Positions 44,806 to 54,082 of a stretch of 60,821 nt of DNA are shown here, one piece after another. Origin of the DNA: a candidate division WOR-3 bacterium (GTDB lineage: Bacteria > Hydrothermota > Tepidihabitantia > Tepidihabitantales > CAIPLT01); NCBI GenBank assembly GCA_039801505.1, contig JBDRUV010000007.1, positions 1-60,821 on the forward strand, given 5' to 3'. Each line of letters starts with the position of its first letter. Position 1 is the first letter of the stretch. A program made the position numbers and the translations under genes. Under the pieces are notes generated by a model. It searched no databases, had not been told where the DNA came from, and worked only from the letters and a program-made list of their open reading frames with translations.

Positions 44806-47800
44806 CTATTTACTAAGAATCAGTTTTTTCTTAAAAATATTTACTTTAGTTTGAGTGTCAATAGTTAAAACTGCAAAGTAAATACCCGATGAAATTTTGG
44901 GATTTACGTGCCAGACTGTTTTATAAACACCAGCATTTTGTTGAACGTGATTTATAATCGGAGCTATTAAATTGCCTTGTATATCATAAATTCGTAGCGA
45001 GACCTTACTATGTTTTTCTAATGAATAAGTAAATTCTACGTCTCTTAACAAAGTCATAGAGCGAGCCTGGAAAGTGTTTGAATGAACAGTTACCCGCGAT
45101 TCTAGTTCCTTAATACTAGTAAAAGTATCAGGAGGATTTGTTGTAAACTTTATAGCTCGTCCGGCTTCAATGACCGCAGCTGACTGAGGATACCGGTTGG
45201 CAAAAGTATATTCAATCCCTGTGGAATGGTCGGGACTTTCAATGCCGACCGTGGCATAATTGTGACAATCAACTGATGCTGAATCATCATTAAATACGGT
45301 ATGATATTGGAAAATTATCGGACCATCGCCGGTAACAGTTTGATAATATTGAGGATTACAAAGGATTACTTGAAATGTCTGTTGTTCAGCCGGATATGGA
45401 TTTCTAAATCCATGGATGTGGTGGATTCTTGACCACTGGACAATAAACCGATGGTTCATTTGATCGTGGTAATAATATATTCCTGACGAATTAAGAGTTT
45501 CTGGATGAAAATCATCCCAAAATGTTGCAACAATTGCCGGCGGTCCTAATGGTGCTGGAATATGCCAGTTGTAGGGTTCTACAATCGCGGTTGAATCCAT
45601 GGTGATATAACCCATGCTTGTAACACTGAGTCTATTGTAGTTTCTTCCGTAATATCTAAACGTGAAAGGTAAATTGAGTGTTCTAATTCCGTAATGGGAG
45701 ATATTTAACCGTGTTCCAGGGCCTCCGTAGTTAGGATCAATTTCAATCCAGTTATAAATCGGTGCCTCAGGATATTGAGTGTCGGTATTGTCATATGCCC
45801 AATAACCATATCGATCCGGACCGGTTGGGGCCGTATTGGAAACTAGCCCAATGACAACTGGAAATTCAATGGTTTGTTGAAATCCAGAGCCGACAAGTGT
45901 AAGTGAAAGATAGAATTGGTGCCCGATGGCAATGTTGGGAGCAGCAAAAACAGTAAATGTTTCTTGAGAATTCTCCACGGTATCTCCAACGTTAATTGTG
46001 CCATAGTAACCAATAGAGTCGGAAATGATGATTGCGTAGGGATTTGCGCTCCGCAGATACCCTATTATGTTATTCAGATTTTTTCTGCCCCGGTTATAAA
46101 TTTTTACTATAAGTTGGGCAGATTCATTTGGCTCTAAAATGTTATTGCCATTATCATTTACCAAATGACTATGATAAACTAGTTCTCCTGAAGAAATCAG
46201 TTCACTAAAACCGGCAGTACCTTGGTACTGATCAGAAGAAATAGCAAGTTCAAAATTAACACGATAATTGTTGGGTGCGTTCGGGCTTACATAAACTTGA
46301 AAGGGCGTAGAATTTGCTTGTTGACCTGGAGCTATGGAGCCATATGATCTAACTGAATCGGTGATTGTGACATAATTACAGTTACACCGGAGCACAGCAT
46401 AGGTGTTCGTCGCAGTTATTGTTGCGCCGTAATTCTTAAGCGTTATGGAAAGGTTATTATTTTCTCCGGTATTCATAGTCCCGCTATGACCATAGTAGTC
46501 GATATTCACTGTAGGATTTATAATTAAAATATAACCCTGATGAGGGATAAAATTATGCTTTGTAACTGTGACAAACAATGTATCTTGAGTTTGAGCCGAG
46601 AAATTTAGTGTTACTACCCCATTTTCGTTAGTATATCCTGATACTTGCACTTCGCTTTCCTTGTATAACGAGACTAATGCGCCACTTACTGGGGCTGATA
46701 AATTATCATATACCGTAATTGTTAGTTGCGAACTTCCGGTTGGGAGTTGGTTGGGATAATTTACTATAAGCGGTTTGGGAACCTCGCCGGTATACATTTC
46801 GAGGGATGGATCACCTAGTAAGTTATAAGTAATTACATGAGTGACAAGCATCAATGAATCACAGGGCAATGGAAAATTCTGAAGTAAAGCTACTTTACCC
46901 AAAAACATCGCTGGGCCACAACGGTATACTCCCTGTCTAAATATACCCCAATATATAGAAAAATCCTGACAATTATTAAATCGAGTTGAAGTGGTGGCAT
47001 AAACTGGTCCATAAAATGCTACAGCGCCCTTGGGATTTACCGGCGTACCTGCCGAAAGCCAGGCGGTTCCAAAATTTGTGCTCGCTGTATAGTTTCCAGT
47101 AGCACAGTAAAAACTTGTAACAATTGGTAGTTTCCAGCCATTATTAAGGTTATATACTTCATTGATTTTAAAATAAGGATATGTCCAACCTTCCCGATTA
47201 CCCCATCCTCGACCATTAACGAACGCAACGCCGCGATTAATAATTGTATCAATTATTCCAACCCCACTGGTGGTTGGTGGGTAAAAACAGGTATCGACTC
47301 GAATGAAACCAGAACCCTGGAGTATTTCTCTAATATAGCGCTTAATCGCCAATGCCGTCCATACTGGAACACCAGATTGTTGATAACTGGTTGCAACCAT
47401 TAGCGCCTGTCGGTACCATAAAGTATCGGTAATAATTGGATTTCTTTCATACCCAATTGTTTTATTTACCATGATCGAAAGCGTAGTTGCATCTGAAGCT
47501 GGCAATCGTCCAAGAAATACCTCAGGATATAGGTCATCGCCATCTAAACACGCATACAAATGATCGCCAACACTTTGTCCGGCCGGAATTGCCGGAATTG
47601 CGTTGGAATTTCCCACAAGCAAAACATATTCTGGTTTAGGATTTTGGGTGTTATAAGTTTGAATTAAATAGTTTTTTATTGCCGTAGCCCCTGAGCCAAT
47701 TTCAGATATTCGTTTAATTGTTACTTTAAACCCTTTTTGGGCTTTCCAACGAGCTAGTGGCAGAATTGTGTTATAAAGGTCATCAGCGACAATAATAATA

Positions 47801-48414
47801 TATCCCGAAGAGGAAATAAAGTTAGGGGGGTCTTCATAATTTATGATTAAATTTTTATAGAAAGTTGCCCAGGTTTTAGATATTGCGTTTGTGGAAAATA
47901 AATTGTCAAAAGATCTGTTAGTAGTAATTTCAAATTCAATATTTCGATAACACACAAGAATATTTTCTTCAGGGGTATAGCGATATTGTCTTATATGTAC
48001 CGGGATAACTTTTAGATCGCGAAAGATCCCAGTTTTGCCTAAAAAAACAAGGGGTAGCTGTTTTTGAGGATTAGAAATATTTTGAGATAGAATACTTGCG
48101 TGTTTTAAATCAATAACGGTTGAGTCAACATTTAATATCTTTACCTGTAGTTGTGCATTGTCAGCGACGGCAAGTAATTTCGAATAATATATCATATTAC
48201 CCTGGGATTCATTAATCTCAGAGATAATTCGCGATAGAAATTCTTCATTACACGAATATTCTTCAGGTAAATATACTGTAATTTTCAAATTATCTCCAGC
48301 TTTCTTTTCGCAATGCGTTTCGATAAAATAACCAAGAGGAATATTGGCTAGTGTATAAGGCAAGGCACCTAATTTAATTATAGTTACAAAGATAACAAGC
48401 AAAAGTTTTTTCAT
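44806..48414 (-). CDS. C25 (gingipain-like) secreted protein with propeptide and NIDO-like domain
   Basis: A 1202-residue exported protein. Signal peptide, then a gingipain-type propeptide (to about residue 195). The C25 domain (about 200-570) has SSGYIIIVADDLYNTILPLA, EYVLLVGNSNAIPAIPAG, NGRGWGNREGWTYPYF in the place of the His motif, and TSFYCATGNYTAS with the nucleophile cysteine near 437. The GHG histidine is absent. Ig-like domains, a NIDO-like domain (TGPDRYGYWAYDNTDTQ, FTFRYYGRNYNRLSVTSMGY) and a sorting tail ending KKKLILSK follow. A GTG at 48423, sharing a base with the upstream stop, is an alternative start. It is a paralogue of 40006-43431. Confidence 0.82.
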   Translation of the reverse strand: MKKLLLVIFVTIIKLGALPYTLANIPLGYFIETHCEKKAGDNLKITVYLPEEYSCNEEFLSRIISEINESQGNMIYYSKLLAVADNAQLQVKILNVDSTVIDLKHASILSQNISNPQKQLPLVFLGKTGIFRDLKVIPVHIRQYRYTPEENILVCYRNIEFEITTNRSFDNLFSTNAISKTWATFYKNLIINYEDPPNFISSSGYIIIVADDLYNTILPLARWKAQKGFKVTIKRISEIGSGATAIKNYLIQTYNTQNPKPEYVLLVGNSNAIPAIPAGQSVGDHLYACLDGDDLYPEVFLGRLPASDATTLSIMVNKTIGYERNPIITDTLWYRQALMVATSYQQSGVPVWTALAIKRYIREILQGSGFIRVDTCFYPPTTSGVGIIDTIINRGVAFVNGRGWGNREGWTYPYFKINEVYNLNNGWKLPIVTSFYCATGNYTASTNFGTAWLSAGTPVNPKGAVAFYGPVYATTSTRFNNCQDFSIYWGIFRQGVYRCGPAMFLGKVALLQNFPLPCDSLMLVTHVITYNLLGDPSLEMYTGEVPKPLIVNYPNQLPTGSSQLTITVYDNLSAPVSGALVSLYKESEVQVSGYTNENGVVTLNFSAQTQDTLFVTVTKHNFIPHQGYILIINPTVNIDYYGHSGTMNTGENNNLSITLKNYGATITATNTYAVLRCNCNYVTITDSVRSYGSIAPGQQANSTPFQVYVSPNAPNNYRVNFELAISSDQYQGTAGFSELISSGELVYHSHLVNDNGNNILEPNESAQLIVKIYNRGRKNLNNIIGYLRSANPYAIIISDSIGYYGTINVGDTVENSQETFTVFAAPNIAIGHQFYLSLTLVGSGFQQTIEFPVVIGLVSNTAPTGPDRYGYWAYDNTDTQYPEAPIYNWIEIDPNYGGPGTRLNISHYGIRTLNLPFTFRYYGRNYNRLSVTSMGYITMDSTAIVEPYNWHIPAPLGPPAIVATFWDDFHPETLNSSGIYYYHDQMNHRFIVQWSRIHHIHGFRNPYPAEQQTFQVILCNPQYYQTVTGDGPIIFQYHTVFNDDSASVDCHNYATVGIESPDHSTGIEYTFANRYPQSAAVIEAGRAIKFTTNPPDTFTSIKELESRVTVHSNTFQARSMTLLRDVEFTYSLEKHSKVSLRIYDIQGNLIAPIINHVQQNAGVYKTVWHVNPKISSGIYFAVLTIDTQTKVNIFKKKLILSK

Positions 48415-48422
48415 GAATTTCA

Positions 48423-49406
48423 CTAGCGTTGATTAGATTTAATAATTACTAAACCTAAATCGCGGTCGGCGACATAAATATTATCTTGTTGATCAACCCA
48501 TACGCCTTTAGCGTATGATGTTGGGACGAATTCTACCAACTGTGGCGCCATGGGGATTTTTACGTTAACAATTGCTAGCCCAGCATCACCACATGCCAAG
48601 TAAGCCAAGGTATCTTTAACAAATACTTTTTGAGCATACCCGGATAATTTAAGAGTTGCAACCGGCAATATATTTCGTGGGTTTTTAATGTTTATAATTA
48701 TCAGGCCACCCCGCCCATCGGCAACATAACATAAAGTGTCTAAGACAAATAAATGGCGGGCATTCGATGGAGTATCACATCCCCCAACCACGACACGCGG
48801 GTTTGTTTTAACGTTCATTACATACACACCTAATTGTTCTAAAGCCAGATAGGCAAATGAGTCCTTGACAACTACACTACGAACATTTGATGGGAAAAGG
48901 GCATGGGGGGAAAGGACTTCAGGATAAACAGGATTTGAGACATCAGCAATGAGGAATTTTTCGCGTGCTGCAATATACAGATAATTGGTATCAGTCGTAA
49001 AGACATCATAGCCGTAAGCCGCAATCCAAGCAAAATTTATTTCGTTTACCAATTTAATGCTATCAAGATTACTGATATTAAGAATATTAAAAATCGTTTT
49101 ACCGGATGCTAAATAAGCATAATTGTTTCGAATTGTCACACCAAAAACCGGATAAAGCGTATCTAGCCACTGAGCCCTAAAAACTGGTACTGAGCAGTTG
49201 CTTACATCATAAACTACTAGTCCAGCTTGCCCGGAAGCCACATATGCATAGTTAGCATTAATGGTTAAGGATTGCGGATAACCGGGATTGGAGACTTGCG
49301 CAATAATTTTGTATAAAGGCTCTGTCTCCCGGGGTTGTCCACAAGTAATAATTAATGTTATTAGTGTTAAAATCCAATAGATTCTCGTGTATTTATTACT
49401 CTTCAT
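48423..49406 (-). CDS. LVIVD-repeat lipoprotein
   Basis: A 327-residue protein. The start at 49406, one base after the preceding stop and behind GAGGAA, leads to a signal peptide with a lipobox-like IITC (cysteine near residue 22); the frame is open from 49445. The rest is made of LVIVD-type propeller blades of about 42 residues: YAYVASGQAGLVVYDVSN, YLYIAAREKFLIADVSNP, FAYLALEQLGVYVMNVK, LCYVADGRGGLIIINIKNP, LAYLACGDAGLAIVNVK. Such propellers bind surface partners; the ligand is unknown. It is the sixth gene of the pgs unit. Confidence 0.85.
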   Translation of the reverse strand: MKSNKYTRIYWILTLITLIITCGQPRETEPLYKIIAQVSNPGYPQSLTINANYAYVASGQAGLVVYDVSNCSVPVFRAQWLDTLYPVFGVTIRNNYAYLASGKTIFNILNISNLDSIKLVNEINFAWIAAYGYDVFTTDTNYLYIAAREKFLIADVSNPVYPEVLSPHALFPSNVRSVVVKDSFAYLALEQLGVYVMNVKTNPRVVVGGCDTPSNARHLFVLDTLCYVADGRGGLIIINIKNPRNILPVATLKLSGYAQKVFVKDTLAYLACGDAGLAIVNVKIPMAPQLVEFVPTSYAKGVWVDQQDNIYVADRDLGLVIIKSNQR

Positions 49407-49407
49407 T

Positions 49408-50469
49408 TTATTCCTCATCTGCTTTACGAGTTTGTACAGATACATTAAAATTAACGCCTAACGTTATCTTGTAATTATTATAATTCTTAATTTCGGTAAT
49501 GTCAATTAAACTCGGCGCGGTAACGCGACGAAACGTATAAAGATAATCCCCAACTAGTCGCCAGTTGTGTTTAAATTGGTATGAGCAATTAAAGTTTATG
49601 GAATAAGTGCGATCTTTTCGTTGATAATGATAAGGATCTATTGTGATTGGATTAGTAGTGGTATATTGCCGATAAGCATATTCCAAGCCCGTGCTCATAA
49701 AAACTTTTTTTGAAATTGTTATTTGCCACTCACAAGCAATTTTGTCTTCCAGATAAGAAATATCGGGTACCGGTCCCACGGCATTATTATGCTTACGTTC
49801 CCAATTAGTTTGGAGTGTAGTATTTTTAGTAATGGGAAAAGCCATTTGCATTCCGTAACGCCAGGCAGTTCCGTCATAAAAATTAAAATTTTTAATATAA
49901 TCGTCAAGTTGGTAACGAATAAAAGAATTTATCCAAAACGAAGAAAATTTATAGCGGAAGCTTAGAGTAAATAGCTGTTCAGTAAATTGACAAGGTATAT
50001 ACTGAGTACGACTACTTAGGGGGTCTTTGTAATACCGGATAAGATAATTAGGGATTAAGAGGTAAGAAAACCTGAATACCAAGTCAGGAAGCATTTGAAC
50101 TTGTAGGTAGGGATTAATTATTTGGTAGCTCTTAATAGTATTCACAGTATAAGTTTTAGCCGTATAATTTACCGTAAAATCTGTTCGTTTAACTAAAATT
50201 CGTAGAGGAAAATTAAAGCTAATTTTATAATTAGCGATTAGATCATCGTGGGTTCTAAAGGGAAAACGATAGGCACGGATTTGATTTCTGAATTCTTCTA
50301 GGGCCTCAGGCGAATATAAAAAAATATTATTGTCATATTCAAGATGGTATTCGAAGGCAAGCTGGGGAGTGCGGCGTAACTTTATAATTTGGTTGGCCAA
50401 AAGGACGCCAGGTATAATAAAACCCAAAATGGTAATGATTGGAATTTGTTTTGACCGGAGATTATTCAT
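49408..50469 (-). CDS. Probable outer-membrane beta-barrel in the pgs locus
   Basis: A 353-residue protein with a signal peptide (about 1-26) and many aromatic-flanked alternating strands: LAFEYHLEYDNNIFLYSPEA, DLIANYKISFNFPLRILVKR, LTFSFRYKF-like text (LFTLSFRYKFSSFWINSFIR) and CSYQFKHNWRLVGDYLYTFR. There is no TonB box or plug. The LEYDNNIF start resembles surface-porin and capsule-export type barrels, but no named family is certain. It overlaps the upstream gene by 8 bases and likely spans the outer membrane. I infer a role in taking PGA across it. Confidence 0.65.
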   Translation of the reverse strand: MNNLRSKQIPIITILGFIIPGVLLANQIIKLRRTPQLAFEYHLEYDNNIFLYSPEALEEFRNQIRAYRFPFRTHDDLIANYKISFNFPLRILVKRTDFTVNYTAKTYTVNTIKSYQIINPYLQVQMLPDLVFRFSYLLIPNYLIRYYKDPLSSRTQYIPCQFTEQLFTLSFRYKFSSFWINSFIRYQLDDYIKNFNFYDGTAWRYGMQMAFPITKNTTLQTNWERKHNNAVGPVPDISYLEDKIACEWQITISKKVFMSTGLEYAYRQYTTTNPITIDPYHYQRKDRTYSINFNCSYQFKHNWRLVGDYLYTFRRVTAPSLIDITEIKNYNNYKITLGVNFNVSVQTRKADEE

Positions 50470-51343
50470 ATTGTTCTTTAGGTTTGTAGTGAAAATTTAG
50501 TGCACCGGATTTAGCTAAAGTGGCTTTTAAGACAAACTCAATAATGTAAGTCCCTGGCGGAATGTGTAAGTACATATTTGATGGTAAAGACGGTACAAGC
50601 TCTGGGGCATTTTTATAAAGGCCCGTCTCAGATTTTGTGGTTCGGAAAGTTTTCGCCTGCCATTCCTTACCACCAACATTGGCCGAGATCGAATAACTTT
50701 GTTTTCCTTCCATCGTATAATCGTAATTAAGTCGGCAAGTAACCCTAAGGATTGCCGGACCATCGACCTTAACTCTTACTGGATTTTTACCGGATACCTC
50801 ATAATAATTAGTAACGCGTTCTCGTTCCACAAATTGTAACTCTCGATAGGGTTTTTCGGGAATAATTTTTCGGTACTCTGTAGGCCGTTCCGAACTAATT
50901 CGCACCGCAACCGTTTCGGATTTAGCTTCTAACAAAGTCAGCTTGTAGTTGTGTTTTCCTTTGGGCACTTCTAAATAGAAAGAACGCCATTTAGCATACT
51001 GGGTTTTATTAGCACCACGGGCGGTGTTTGAAAGTTCGCTGGTAAACGATAAAATTTTTTCAGATTCCTGCTCTTCACTGACTATGATTTTGTAGTTCTC
51101 TTGTTTCGCCATTGTTGGTTGCCAGAGCAGCCGGCTATAGATTCTTAAGTAAGTTGGACCCTCAACGCTAAATTCAAGCGGTTTATCTTTAGTTAGTAAA
51201 TAATATTCTTGTTCAACGCGTTTAATAACACTAATTGTTGTTCGTGGGGAGTGTTTTTTAATTTCGATGTTTGGCTCTTGAGCCGCTACGGGTAGAATGC
51301 TTAAGAGTATTACCAGGAAAATAATTCTTAAAATTTTCCTCAT
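50462..51343 (-). CDS. Periplasmic protein with a duplicated domain in the pgs locus
   Basis: A 293-residue exported protein of unrecognised family. Signal peptide at 1-21 (LPVAAQ). Two similar halves follow (about 40-155 and 165-285): each has a VExEYY-type start (VEQEYYLLTKDKPLEFSVEG and VERERVTNYYEVSGKNPVRV), then GPTYLRIYSRL or GPAILRVTCRL, then a tyrosine-rich strand and a basic C-terminal strand (PKGKHNYKLTLLEA and PPGTYIIEFVLKA). This suggests a tandem duplication of a beta-sandwich. Many basic residues could bind a polyanion such as PGA (inference). It lies between pgsW and the barrel gene. Confidence 0.7.
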   Translation of the reverse strand: MRKILRIIFLVILLSILPVAAQEPNIEIKKHSPRTTISVIKRVEQEYYLLTKDKPLEFSVEGPTYLRIYSRLLWQPTMAKQENYKIIVSEEQESEKILSFTSELSNTARGANKTQYAKWRSFYLEVPKGKHNYKLTLLEAKSETVAVRISSERPTEYRKIIPEKPYRELQFVERERVTNYYEVSGKNPVRVKVDGPAILRVTCRLNYDYTMEGKQSYSISANVGGKEWQAKTFRTTKSETGLYKNAPELVPSLPSNMYLHIPPGTYIIEFVLKATLAKSGALNFHYKPKEQYE

Positions 51344-51355
51344 ACTTTGACTCCT

Positions 51356-52438
51356 TTATGAGTTTATCTTTTTCTTAAAGAGATAAAATTCTAAGTCATA
51401 CTTGATGACTAAGAATAAAATTATTATGATCACAATTGTAAACACCGTAGCCAAAGTTACGGAAAATCTCTTTTCGATAAAAAGCTTGCCTTTGCCAATT
51501 GGTGGCAAAGGAACTGGTGCGTGGGGCAAGTCATATTTTGCCGCCAGGCGGTTGATATCTAACACATTAATTACTGGGATTTTTCGATCCAGCATGCGGG
51601 TGATTAACACGTCATCAGTAAACTTACTCGGCTTACGCCGGATAATTCCAGTAGGTAAATAATGGTAAGATGGACCGATACTGCTAACCGACTTACCAAT
51701 ATTTATAAAATATTTAATTGACCGAGCCTGTTGATAAATTTTTAGGCGTTCATCTAGGTTAGTAATAAAATTATCGGTGTGTAAGAAGCTAACATTATTC
51801 CGCTGGATCGCTTTTTCGAGGAGCACTCGGGCTTCAGGACTAAATCCTCGGCCGTTATCATCTTCACCGCCTAAGGTTGCAGCTAGGGATTTAAAGGGGA
51901 AAATATTATTTTCATATAATATCCGCTCCATGTCTAACCAAGTAAACTCGGCTAAATTGGCTCCCCACATTGCAGAACTTACACTGGTAATAATTATTGG
52001 TTTAATCCCCAGGACCCGACATGCCGAATAAAAAGCAATGTTTAATGCTGGATAGGAACCATCTAATGCAACGGCCACGGTATCATTAAGCTTGAGTGAG
52101 CTTAAAAGTTCCACAAATACCGCAGCAAAATTAGGATTAGTGCTGGTCAGAATCGATGACAGATCACTGCGCTCCTGGGTAATCAGCGAATACTGCACAC
52201 CAACTAAGCCGGTTTCGTTGGGGTCGTTGATAATGTCGATTACTAGACCCCGTTTTAGGCGTTCGGCTTTAATAACTTTAAAGGCTTCAGCGCAGATTTG
52301 GGATGCTTTAAGTTTGTTTTCGTAATTGCGGGTTTTAACATTATGAATACTTTTAACCTCTAAGATAAAGAAGATTATGCTAAGAAAGGCGAAAACAATT
52401 AGAATTCGATTGTCAACCTTACCAATCCGTTTTTGCAT
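51356..52438 (-). CDS. pgsW: Poly-gamma-glutamate system protein PgsW
   Basis: A 360-residue membrane protein with a hydrophobic segment near each end (about 10-27 and 330-350). The core matches the poly-gamma-glutamate system family: EAFKVIKAERLKRGLVIDII, TSTNPNFAAVFVELLSSLKL, VAVALDGSYPALNIAFYSAC, ITSVSSAMWGANLAEFTWLD and AATLGGEDDNGRGFSPEARV. The family is defined by linkage to PgsB and PgsC; its biochemical task is not settled. Here it follows pgsC by 12 bases, as expected. Confidence 0.9.
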   Translation of the reverse strand: MQKRIGKVDNRILIVFAFLSIIFFILEVKSIHNVKTRNYENKLKASQICAEAFKVIKAERLKRGLVIDIINDPNETGLVGVQYSLITQERSDLSSILTSTNPNFAAVFVELLSSLKLNDTVAVALDGSYPALNIAFYSACRVLGIKPIIITSVSSAMWGANLAEFTWLDMERILYENNIFPFKSLAATLGGEDDNGRGFSPEARVLLEKAIQRNNVSFLHTDNFITNLDERLKIYQQARSIKYFINIGKSVSSIGPSYHYLPTGIIRRKPSKFTDDVLITRMLDRKIPVINVLDINRLAAKYDLPHAPVPLPPIGKGKLFIEKRFSVTLATVFTIVIIIILFLVIKYDLEFYLFKKKINS

Positions 52439-52450
52439 CCTTTACTCCTT

Positions 52451-52903
52451 TTAGATAATGGCTATCGAGCCATTAGAGATTATAATAATTAAAAGTCGGG
52501 TCAAAATTGCAGCCACGGTCATGGTAGTTAGGGTTTCAATAATTCCTTGTCGGAACATCCAATAAGCAATAAGCCCGGGTATTACATAACCAATGGTTGT
52601 AAGATCGAGTTTTAACTCGTGAAAATAAATCGGCGGAAAGACCCGAAACAGAAATCCGATTAGATATCCTAAAAGAATCGTAATCACTAAAAGCCGTCGG
52701 CCAAAAAGCAGCATGAAATTACTCAAGAGTTTACTGAGTAAAAAGGTGACTAAAGCAATAGCTACCGTGGCGAAGATTCTTACCGGCTCTAAAAGAAACA
52801 AGGCGATATAGCCAGGCACCACAATGCCGCCGGCAGCCAGGCCGATTGTTTCGGTCAAAAATAGACTCATTAACATTCCCAAGCCAATTGTTTCGATGAT
52901 CAT
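52451..52903 (-). CDS. pgsC: Poly-gamma-glutamate synthase subunit PgsC/CapC
   Basis: A 150-residue integral membrane protein with about five hydrophobic segments, the membrane partner of PgsB. GLGMLMSLFLTETIGLAAGG followed by IVVPGYIALFL, then LLGYLIGFLF and TTIGYVIPGLIAYWMFRQGI, are the PgsC pattern; its length is usual. It lies 3 bases after pgsB. Together they form the core of the PGA polymerase and export complex in the inner membrane. Confidence 0.93.
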   Translation of the reverse strand: MIIETIGLGMLMSLFLTETIGLAAGGIVVPGYIALFLLEPVRIFATVAIALVTFLLSKLLSNFMLLFGRRLLVITILLGYLIGFLFRVFPPIYFHELKLDLTTIGYVIPGLIAYWMFRQGIIETLTTMTVAAILTRLLIIIISNGSIAII

Positions 52904-52906
52904 GTG

Positions 52907-54082
52907 TTACCCCTTTTGATACTCAATTTCGCCGCCTTTACGGGCAAAATACTGAATTAAGGTCTCGCCAAATCCTACGGTATTACCCGTAGCAAAAACT
53001 AAAGCTTCTTCTTTTATTAATGATAGAACTTTATCATAAATTTCGGCTGGGCTCTTATTACCCATATCAACTAATTTTTCTTTGGCTAATCCCAGACTAA
53101 TAGCTTTCTTAATATAAGCGAGGGTAAATGAGCCAGTGGCCACAAACCAATTGGCATCGAACTTTTGCGCTGTGAGTTCCGCTAATTGTAATGAGCGGTC
53201 GACGCGGTCATCGCGGCAGTTCACTAGGACAATTCGTTCCTCGGAGAAATTTTTAACCTTTTCCCAAAGCAGACAGATTGAGTCCGGGTCATTGGCGGCT
53301 AAGGTATTTACCACCTTAAATGTTTTCCCTTGGTCAGTTATTGTATAAATCCGCATGACCCCCGGATCCGGAGTTTGACGATACATCCCCGAAAGTGCCG
53401 TCTGTTTATCAATGCCTAAACTTTGACATACCGCCAAGGCCAAGGCCACATTTTCTTTATGTTCCACATAACTAAAACCTTTCATATCCTCATCGGTGAC
53501 AATCGAGGGGTCGGCCACGATAACCTCAGTGCCTAAGGCTAAGGCGCGTTCCTTAAAAATATCTAAATGAACCTGCTCGGCGGTAAAAAATTTTGCCTTC
53601 CGGGCAATAGTATTGGAAAGGGCGCGAGCCACATCCCGCACCGTTGGTCCCATAACATCCAGATGGTCAGCCCGGGCATTGGTAATTACACTATGGGTTG
53701 GTTTTAAGAGTCGGTGGGTGTGAAGCCATTGATAATAGGGGACAAGGGCCATACATTCAATGACAATCACATCTGGTTGGTATTTTACGGCCTCGCGAAA
53801 AATTTTTTGTTCTTCAGCAATATTTGGTTTGCCCAATCTTTTAATCGGTACCTCTTCTGTATCCGAGATAATAAACCGGGGTTTGGTGCCTGTAGTTTTG
53901 GCAATGACCCTTCGGCCACTGGCCCGAATTCCTCCGGCAATCAACCGGGTGACCGACGATTTGCCGCGGGTGCCGTTGACTTCAATTCGGATGGGAATTT
54001 TTTTGACATTTTGGAGATGTCTTTGGTAGGAGTAGATACCCCAGGCGATAAAGATAGCCGTGATTAAAAACAAAAAAATCAT
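52907..54082 (-). CDS. pgsB: Poly-gamma-glutamate synthase subunit PgsB/CapB
   Basis: A 391-residue ATP-dependent amide ligase related to Mur ligases, which adds glutamate by gamma-amide bonds. An N-terminal membrane anchor (about 1-17) precedes RIEVNGTRGKSSVTRLIAGG with the ATP loop GTRGKSS. KTTGTKPRFI, VIECMALVPYYQW, ITNARADHLDVMGPTVRDVA and NCRDDRVDRSLQLAELTA are all family blocks. It opens a ten-gene minus-strand unit, and its ATG is 9 bases from the -10 box (leaderless). Confidence 0.95.
   Translation of the reverse strand: MIFLFLITAIFIAWGIYSYQRHLQNVKKIPIRIEVNGTRGKSSVTRLIAGGIRASGRRVIAKTTGTKPRFIISDTEEVPIKRLGKPNIAEEQKIFREAVKYQPDVIVIECMALVPYYQWLHTHRLLKPTHSVITNARADHLDVMGPTVRDVARALSNTIARKAKFFTAEQVHLDIFKERALALGTEVIVADPSIVTDEDMKGFSYVEHKENVALALAVCQSLGIDKQTALSGMYRQTPDPGVMRIYTITDQGKTFKVVNTLAANDPDSICLLWEKVKNFSEERIVLVNCRDDRVDRSLQLAELTAQKFDANWFVATGSFTLAYIKKAISLGLAKEKLVDMGNKSPAEIYDKVLSLIKEEALVFATGNTVGFGETLIQYFARKGGEIEYQKG

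Follow-up and report, generated by a model that had tools for sequence, protein, structure and literature searches.

The stretch of DNA analysed here (the window; 60,821 nt from a candidate division WOR-3 bacterium whose assembled genome measures 1.94 Mb) carries on its (−) strand a cluster that begins with genes for the synthesis of poly-γ-glutamate (PGA). The synthase itself, a Mur-ligase-like amide ligase, is encoded by pgsB (52907..54082), which scores 425.5 bits with TIGR04012 (cut-off 222.7) and whose translation contains the P-loop GTRGKSS; pgsC (52451..52903) specifies the synthase membrane subunit (TIGR04011, 121 bits against a cut-off of 96; Pfam Caps_synth_CapC). With these two genes adjacent and both above curated NCBIfam cut-offs, the source genome possesses a recognizable synthase operon, and the polymer made by these organisms is presumably PGA. 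The product of pgsW (51356..52438; TIGR04332, 288 bits against a cut-off of 100) is a PGA-system protein with a hydrophobic segment near both ends, probably anchored in the inner membrane and exposing a periplasmic domain. It stands in the place of PgsA/CapA, for which the source genome gave no match (PF09587); CapA is accessory only in a published model of the PGA synthase (PMC5542703).

The first-pass annotation of this DNA had placed two genes directly after pgsW with an overlap of 8 bases, and both open reading frames are confirmed. The first, here called X (50462..51343, (−) strand, 293 aa), starts 12 bases after pgsW behind a Shine–Dalgarno-like AAAGGAG, and its TAA stop codon lies together with the ATG start codon of the second, Y (49408..50469, (−) strand, 353 aa), within the shared bases 50462..50469. 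An overlap of this kind suggests translational coupling, and in 93% of 43 loci of the WOR-3 phylum the two genes either overlap or directly adjoin each other. Further downstream on the same strand are Z (48423..49445), encoding an LVIVD-repeat lipoprotein of the beta-propeller type (Pfam LVIVD, 9.2e-28; lipobox LIITC in the translation), and a gene for a C25 peptidase of the gingipain/PorU type (44806..48423; Peptidase_C25, 1.1e-56) with a weak T9SS sorting tail (TIGR04183, 20.9 bits, below the cut-off of 23). The region 48423-40006 encodes two large C25-type proteins in all (1205 and 1141 aa), and relatives of the first often adjoin the PGA cluster in several phyla.

Neither X nor Y of the window matched a Pfam or NCBIfam family, so that their description as genes of no recognized family stands, and both proteins begin with what by eye is a Sec-type signal sequence. 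X had also been described as an exported protein built from two similar basic beta domains. Its halves (residues ~34-151 and 168-288) align as profiles with a probability of 99.9 and an E-value of 1.2e-32, which indicates tandem duplication of one beta domain. The mature protein has a pI of 9.4 and a net charge of +12, also the median among X homologues, and the X parts of fusion proteins carry +29 to +52. The AlphaFold model (59 sequences) is all-beta with two domains and a pLDDT of 93.7. Its top match in Foldseek is a tandem CBM22-CBM22 protein (4xup, E 1e-5, global TM 0.24), a pair of binding-type sandwiches; the likeness is one of fold only, the low TM value possibly stemming from the angle between the domains. 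None of the 59 X proteins gave a Pfam match to CBM22 or a match to TPR repeats, the polysaccharide export domain (OPX/Wza) was found by Pfam in neither the X nor the Y family, and a plasmid search with X returned no match. A sequence search of the PDB with the X and Y profiles yielded nothing significant. Two faint matches, Sec-ASP3 (Pfam) for X (E 0.028, under the cut-off) and GgpR (NCBIfam) for Y (0.065), were judged to be due to chance.

Y, previously said to look like a beta-barrel, is indeed modelled by AlphaFold as a barrel of 14 strands (pLDDT 93.0, pTM 0.86, 49 sequences), and in all 14 strands a more hydrophobic face alternates with a less hydrophobic one. The nearest solved structures in Foldseek are OmpG (2.4e-10) and CymA (3.7e-9), followed by the barrel of BcsC (4.4e-8). 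Like OmpG and CymA, Y is predicted to fold as a monomeric 14-stranded barrel; unlike these uptake porins, with which it shares ~10% identity, it has its most conserved part in the outer loops. Pfam matches of Y homologues are almost all to barrel families, with BBP2 and OMP_b-brl foremost and PelB_C once. Three to four of 49 homologues matched EpsL (TIGR03014; three homologues) or BBP2 (PF10082), barrels of exopolysaccharide loci, with best E-values of 1.1e-7 and 1.8e-8, and so in the range of 1e-7 to 1e-8. The window Y has no such match, and neither X nor a PGA synthase is part of the EpsL systems.

When lumen and loops are assigned by strand parity, with both termini taken as periplasmic, the Y lumen has a mean net charge of +6.3 and is positive in 92% of the homologues, values obtained without a control set of barrels. 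With the same inferred topology the periplasmic turns carry on average +4.9 and the outer loops −9.2, and the presumed extracellular loops are the most conserved part of the protein (2.33 bits versus 1.76 in the strands), pointing to a gate or to a specific site of exit. A cationic lumen behind a basic periplasmic protein fits a carrier of polyanionic PGA.

Within the WOR-3 phylum the three genes travel together. Among 147 genomes PgsW was detected in 70, X in 70 and Y in 72; PgsW and X coincide in 66 genomes and X and Y in 69 (Fisher 1e-31 and 5e-37, respectively, values that overstate independence because the genomes are kin). Three exceptions (G038, G039 and G083) are contig starts. X and Y lie together downstream of pgsW in 51 of 60 loci of the phylum and in 46 of 58 loci elsewhere, and the conserved order in other phyla is not affected by kinship in the same way. 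Co-occurrence and gene order taken together, the association of X-Y with the pgs genes exceeds chance. In three genomes (G017, G018 and G086) the pair is unlinked from pgsW, yet X and Y are still adjacent. At L036, L047 and L048, from G017-G019, no pgsB or pgsC was detected beside pgsW and the X-Y pair is on a separate contig. One further genome (G010), without PgsW or X, has a distant Y-like barrel (L186, 4983-6095) next to a repeat protein that resembles a beta-propeller.

Outside the phylum, X-Y follows pgsW in Bacteroidota, Ignavibacteria, KSB1, Krumholzibacteriota, Eisenbacteria, Zixibacteria, Latescibacterota, Fibrobacter and Cloacimonadota, so that the pair adjoins pgsBCW in many other diderm phyla. 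A MAG labelled Melioribacter roseus (L145) likewise bears the cluster. The scan of the collection was made with a PgsW alignment of 10 rows, a version of 24 rows being too diverse, and covers the best 80 of 318 loci, which favour relatives of the query and leave Fusobacteriota, Synergistota and Planctomycetota outside its coverage. Among 247 Bacteroidota genomes, PgsW was found in 9 and X in 4. Strong Y matches are limited to the four genomes with X, each of which also has PgsW and carries the genes adjacent. One of these phylum members (G147) has two pgsBCW loci, and its sole X and Y matches adjoin one of them. Its other locus belongs to a second class of Bacteroidota pgsB/pgsW loci (L177-L182; G254, G309, G377, G389, G404 and G147), which contain a γ-glutamyltransferase-like gene and other exported genes; neither X nor Y was found with this class, that is, in the five PgsW genomes and at the second PgsW of G147. 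At three proteobacterial PgsW loci (L127, L150 and L169) pgsW lacks an adjacent X, no Y was found anywhere in the three genomes, and the group to which they belong gave weak X-domain matches only. The absence from these loci and from the second Bacteroidota class implies that X-Y is not a universal diderm solution. In two Ignavibacteria (L136, 7526-10069; L118, 7748-9898) a barrel of the TonB-receptor type replaces Y after X, and no Y was detected in either genome.

X-like domains also occur singly. Exported proteins at four deltaproteobacterial loci (L196, L200, L201 and L205) consist of one such domain, a Lys/Pro-rich linker and a C-terminal part resembling a small outer-membrane barrel; one of the proteins examined has a weak Pfam match to an outer-membrane barrel, and the rest are alike by eye. 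No recognized PGA genes lie near them, and since single domains of the X type thus exist outside visible PGA loci the domain is not specific to PGA.

In eight WOR-3 phylum genomes a single open reading frame after pgsW comprises X at its N-terminal and Y at its C-terminal end. An explanation of these frames as sequencing errors was rejected, because most of the fused proteins lack a Y signal sequence (by eye) and the eight genomes agree. PgsW and X form a single frame at L172, L174 and L211 (Krumholzibacteriota and a related bacterium), and open frames of 671-692 aa cover the X match in >10 Krumholzibacteriota genomes. Some Y proteins have an extra X-like domain at the N-terminus. Between them the PgsW-X and X-Y fusions trace a path from the inner to the outer membrane and, along with the charge pattern, provide evidence beyond the position and fold on which the first-pass annotation had relied.

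That annotation had proposed the pair as the missing outer-membrane part of PGA export in diderm cells, a proposal now supported by folds, synteny, fusions and charge, with the qualification that the pair is not universal. It withstood both of the refuting checks named in the annotation, one on predicted structure and one on homology. We consider it probable, though well short of assured, that X and Y are the periplasmic bridge and the outer-membrane pore of a PGA exporter. The observations behind this are the order and co-occurrence of the genes, their fusions, the charge pattern and folds predicted with confidence; binding of PGA by X, passage through Y and gating are inferred. According to the model, PgsB-PgsC would synthesize the PGA chain and move it over the inner membrane, where anchored PgsW would hold X. 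In the periplasm the basic tandem beta-sandwich of X would bind the anionic chain and dock onto Y, whose cationic periplasmic mouth and lumen would pull the polymer through, the conserved outer loops serving as gate or exit site. The Z lipoprotein propeller would probably act with Y at the outer membrane. Downstream of Y, a homologue of Z is encoded at 41 of 60 loci of the WOR-3 phylum and at 36 of 58 loci elsewhere; in several phyla this lipoprotein recurs as the sixth gene of the PGA cluster.

One point against an exporter is that the synthase-dependent translocons known so far combine 16-18 strands with a TPR scaffold (PMC9601211), while Y has 14 strands and X no TPR. The window proteins have no detectable sequence homology to PgaA, BcsC, AlgE-AlgK or PelB-PelC, nor did they turn out to be homologous to some unrelated system. 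As in these systems, an inner-membrane synthase shares its operon with a periplasmic partner and an outer-membrane barrel, and the two parts are sometimes one polypeptide, as in PgaA and BcsC. The differences are that the polymer would be a polyamide, that synthesis relies on PgsC and a PgsB of the Mur-ligase-like type, and that the periplasmic part is a duplicated beta-sandwich. PelB provides a mirror-image precedent, with an anionic interior for the cationic Pel polymer and loops that seal the exit; the inferred Y lumen would likewise be opposite in charge to its polymer (PMC12141448). EpsX-EpsY of Myxococcus is also a two-part translocon, composed of a short periplasmic protein and a barrel from a separate gene and found by synteny (PMC9601211), but X is not an OPX protein, and the EpsX-type barrel has 18 strands and serves a Wzx/Wzy pathway. 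The Bacillus systems PgsBCA(E) and CapBCA(D,E) share with the WOR-3 locus the homologues of PgsB and PgsC and the synthesis of the polymer. Bacillus, however, is monoderm and lacks an outer membrane as well as X, Y and Z, whereas the WOR-3 bacterium has PgsW and no PgsA/CapA. A literature search, with most subscription journals outside its reach, yielded nothing published on PgsW, on TIGR04332 or on an exporter of PGA in the outer membrane. The conserved, sometimes fused and charge-matched X-Y pair offers concrete proteins for the gap in diderm PGA export. If the model is correct, it describes a polyamide translocon that uses a 14-stranded barrel and a bridge without TPR, and the genes X and Y could serve as markers of PGA export among uncultured bacteria.

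The chief rival of the exporter model is that Y, together with Z, keeps PGA attached to the cell surface while another pore exports it, much as the 18-stranded barrel Wzi does with group 1 capsule (PMC9601211). Strong conservation of the presumed extracellular loops is unusual for a plain pore and would suit such an anchor, as would the lipoprotein propeller that is often encoded next. The positive charge, however, is on the lumen and the periplasmic mouth, and outer loops of net −9.2 would hold a polyanion poorly without divalent cations. The PgsW-X and X-Y fusions moreover indicate a route across the periplasm, and no further candidate for an outer-membrane pore was recognized among the window genes adjoining pgsBCW. 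We regard an anchor as rather unlikely.

We give still less credit to a view in which X binds peptidoglycan, Y is a general porin and their position reflects a shared envelope regulon and not PGA transport. The deltaproteobacterial proteins with one X-like domain and a seeming barrel at the end point in this direction, and so does the resemblance of Y to the general porins OmpG and CymA. Yet X and strong Y are nearly confined to PgsW genomes in both WOR-3 and Bacteroidota, and the Bacteroidota genome with two pgsBCW loci keeps its single X and Y beside one of them.

Equally doubtful is a role in surface conjugation, in which X, Y, Z and a C25 transpeptidase would link PGA to T9SS-secreted proteins, as PorV, PorZ and PorU do with anionic LPS; PorZ is described as handing A-LPS to the PorU sortase (PMC8545088). 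In many loci of the WOR-3 phylum, and at L128, L155, L164 and L175, Z is indeed followed by a C25 homologue, a C25 peptidase is found after Z in loci of KSB1, Eisenbacteria and Chlorobi, some of these neighbours weakly match PorU models, and one Bacteroidota Z has a faint match to the PorZ propeller (0.0027, below the cut-off). The window enzyme, on the other hand, has no PorU match, every PorU-model score is far under the cut-off (420 for the related neighbours), and C25 is absent from most of the Bacteroidota loci examined. SprA is present in the source genome, but we rejected it as a T9SS link of the system because 137 of 147 genomes carry it, so that it does not track PGA. The C25 peptidase is at most a possible member of the PGA system, and the full scheme, with pgsBCW-X-Y-Z-C25 making PGA and exporting it via X-Y before Z and the transpeptidase attach it by a covalent bond to surface proteins secreted by the T9SS, PGA replacing anionic LPS as protein anchor, strikes us as very improbable. 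Z itself varies in size, with versions of ~800-1175 aa in the loci of Krumholzibacteriota, Latescibacterota and Fibrobacter.
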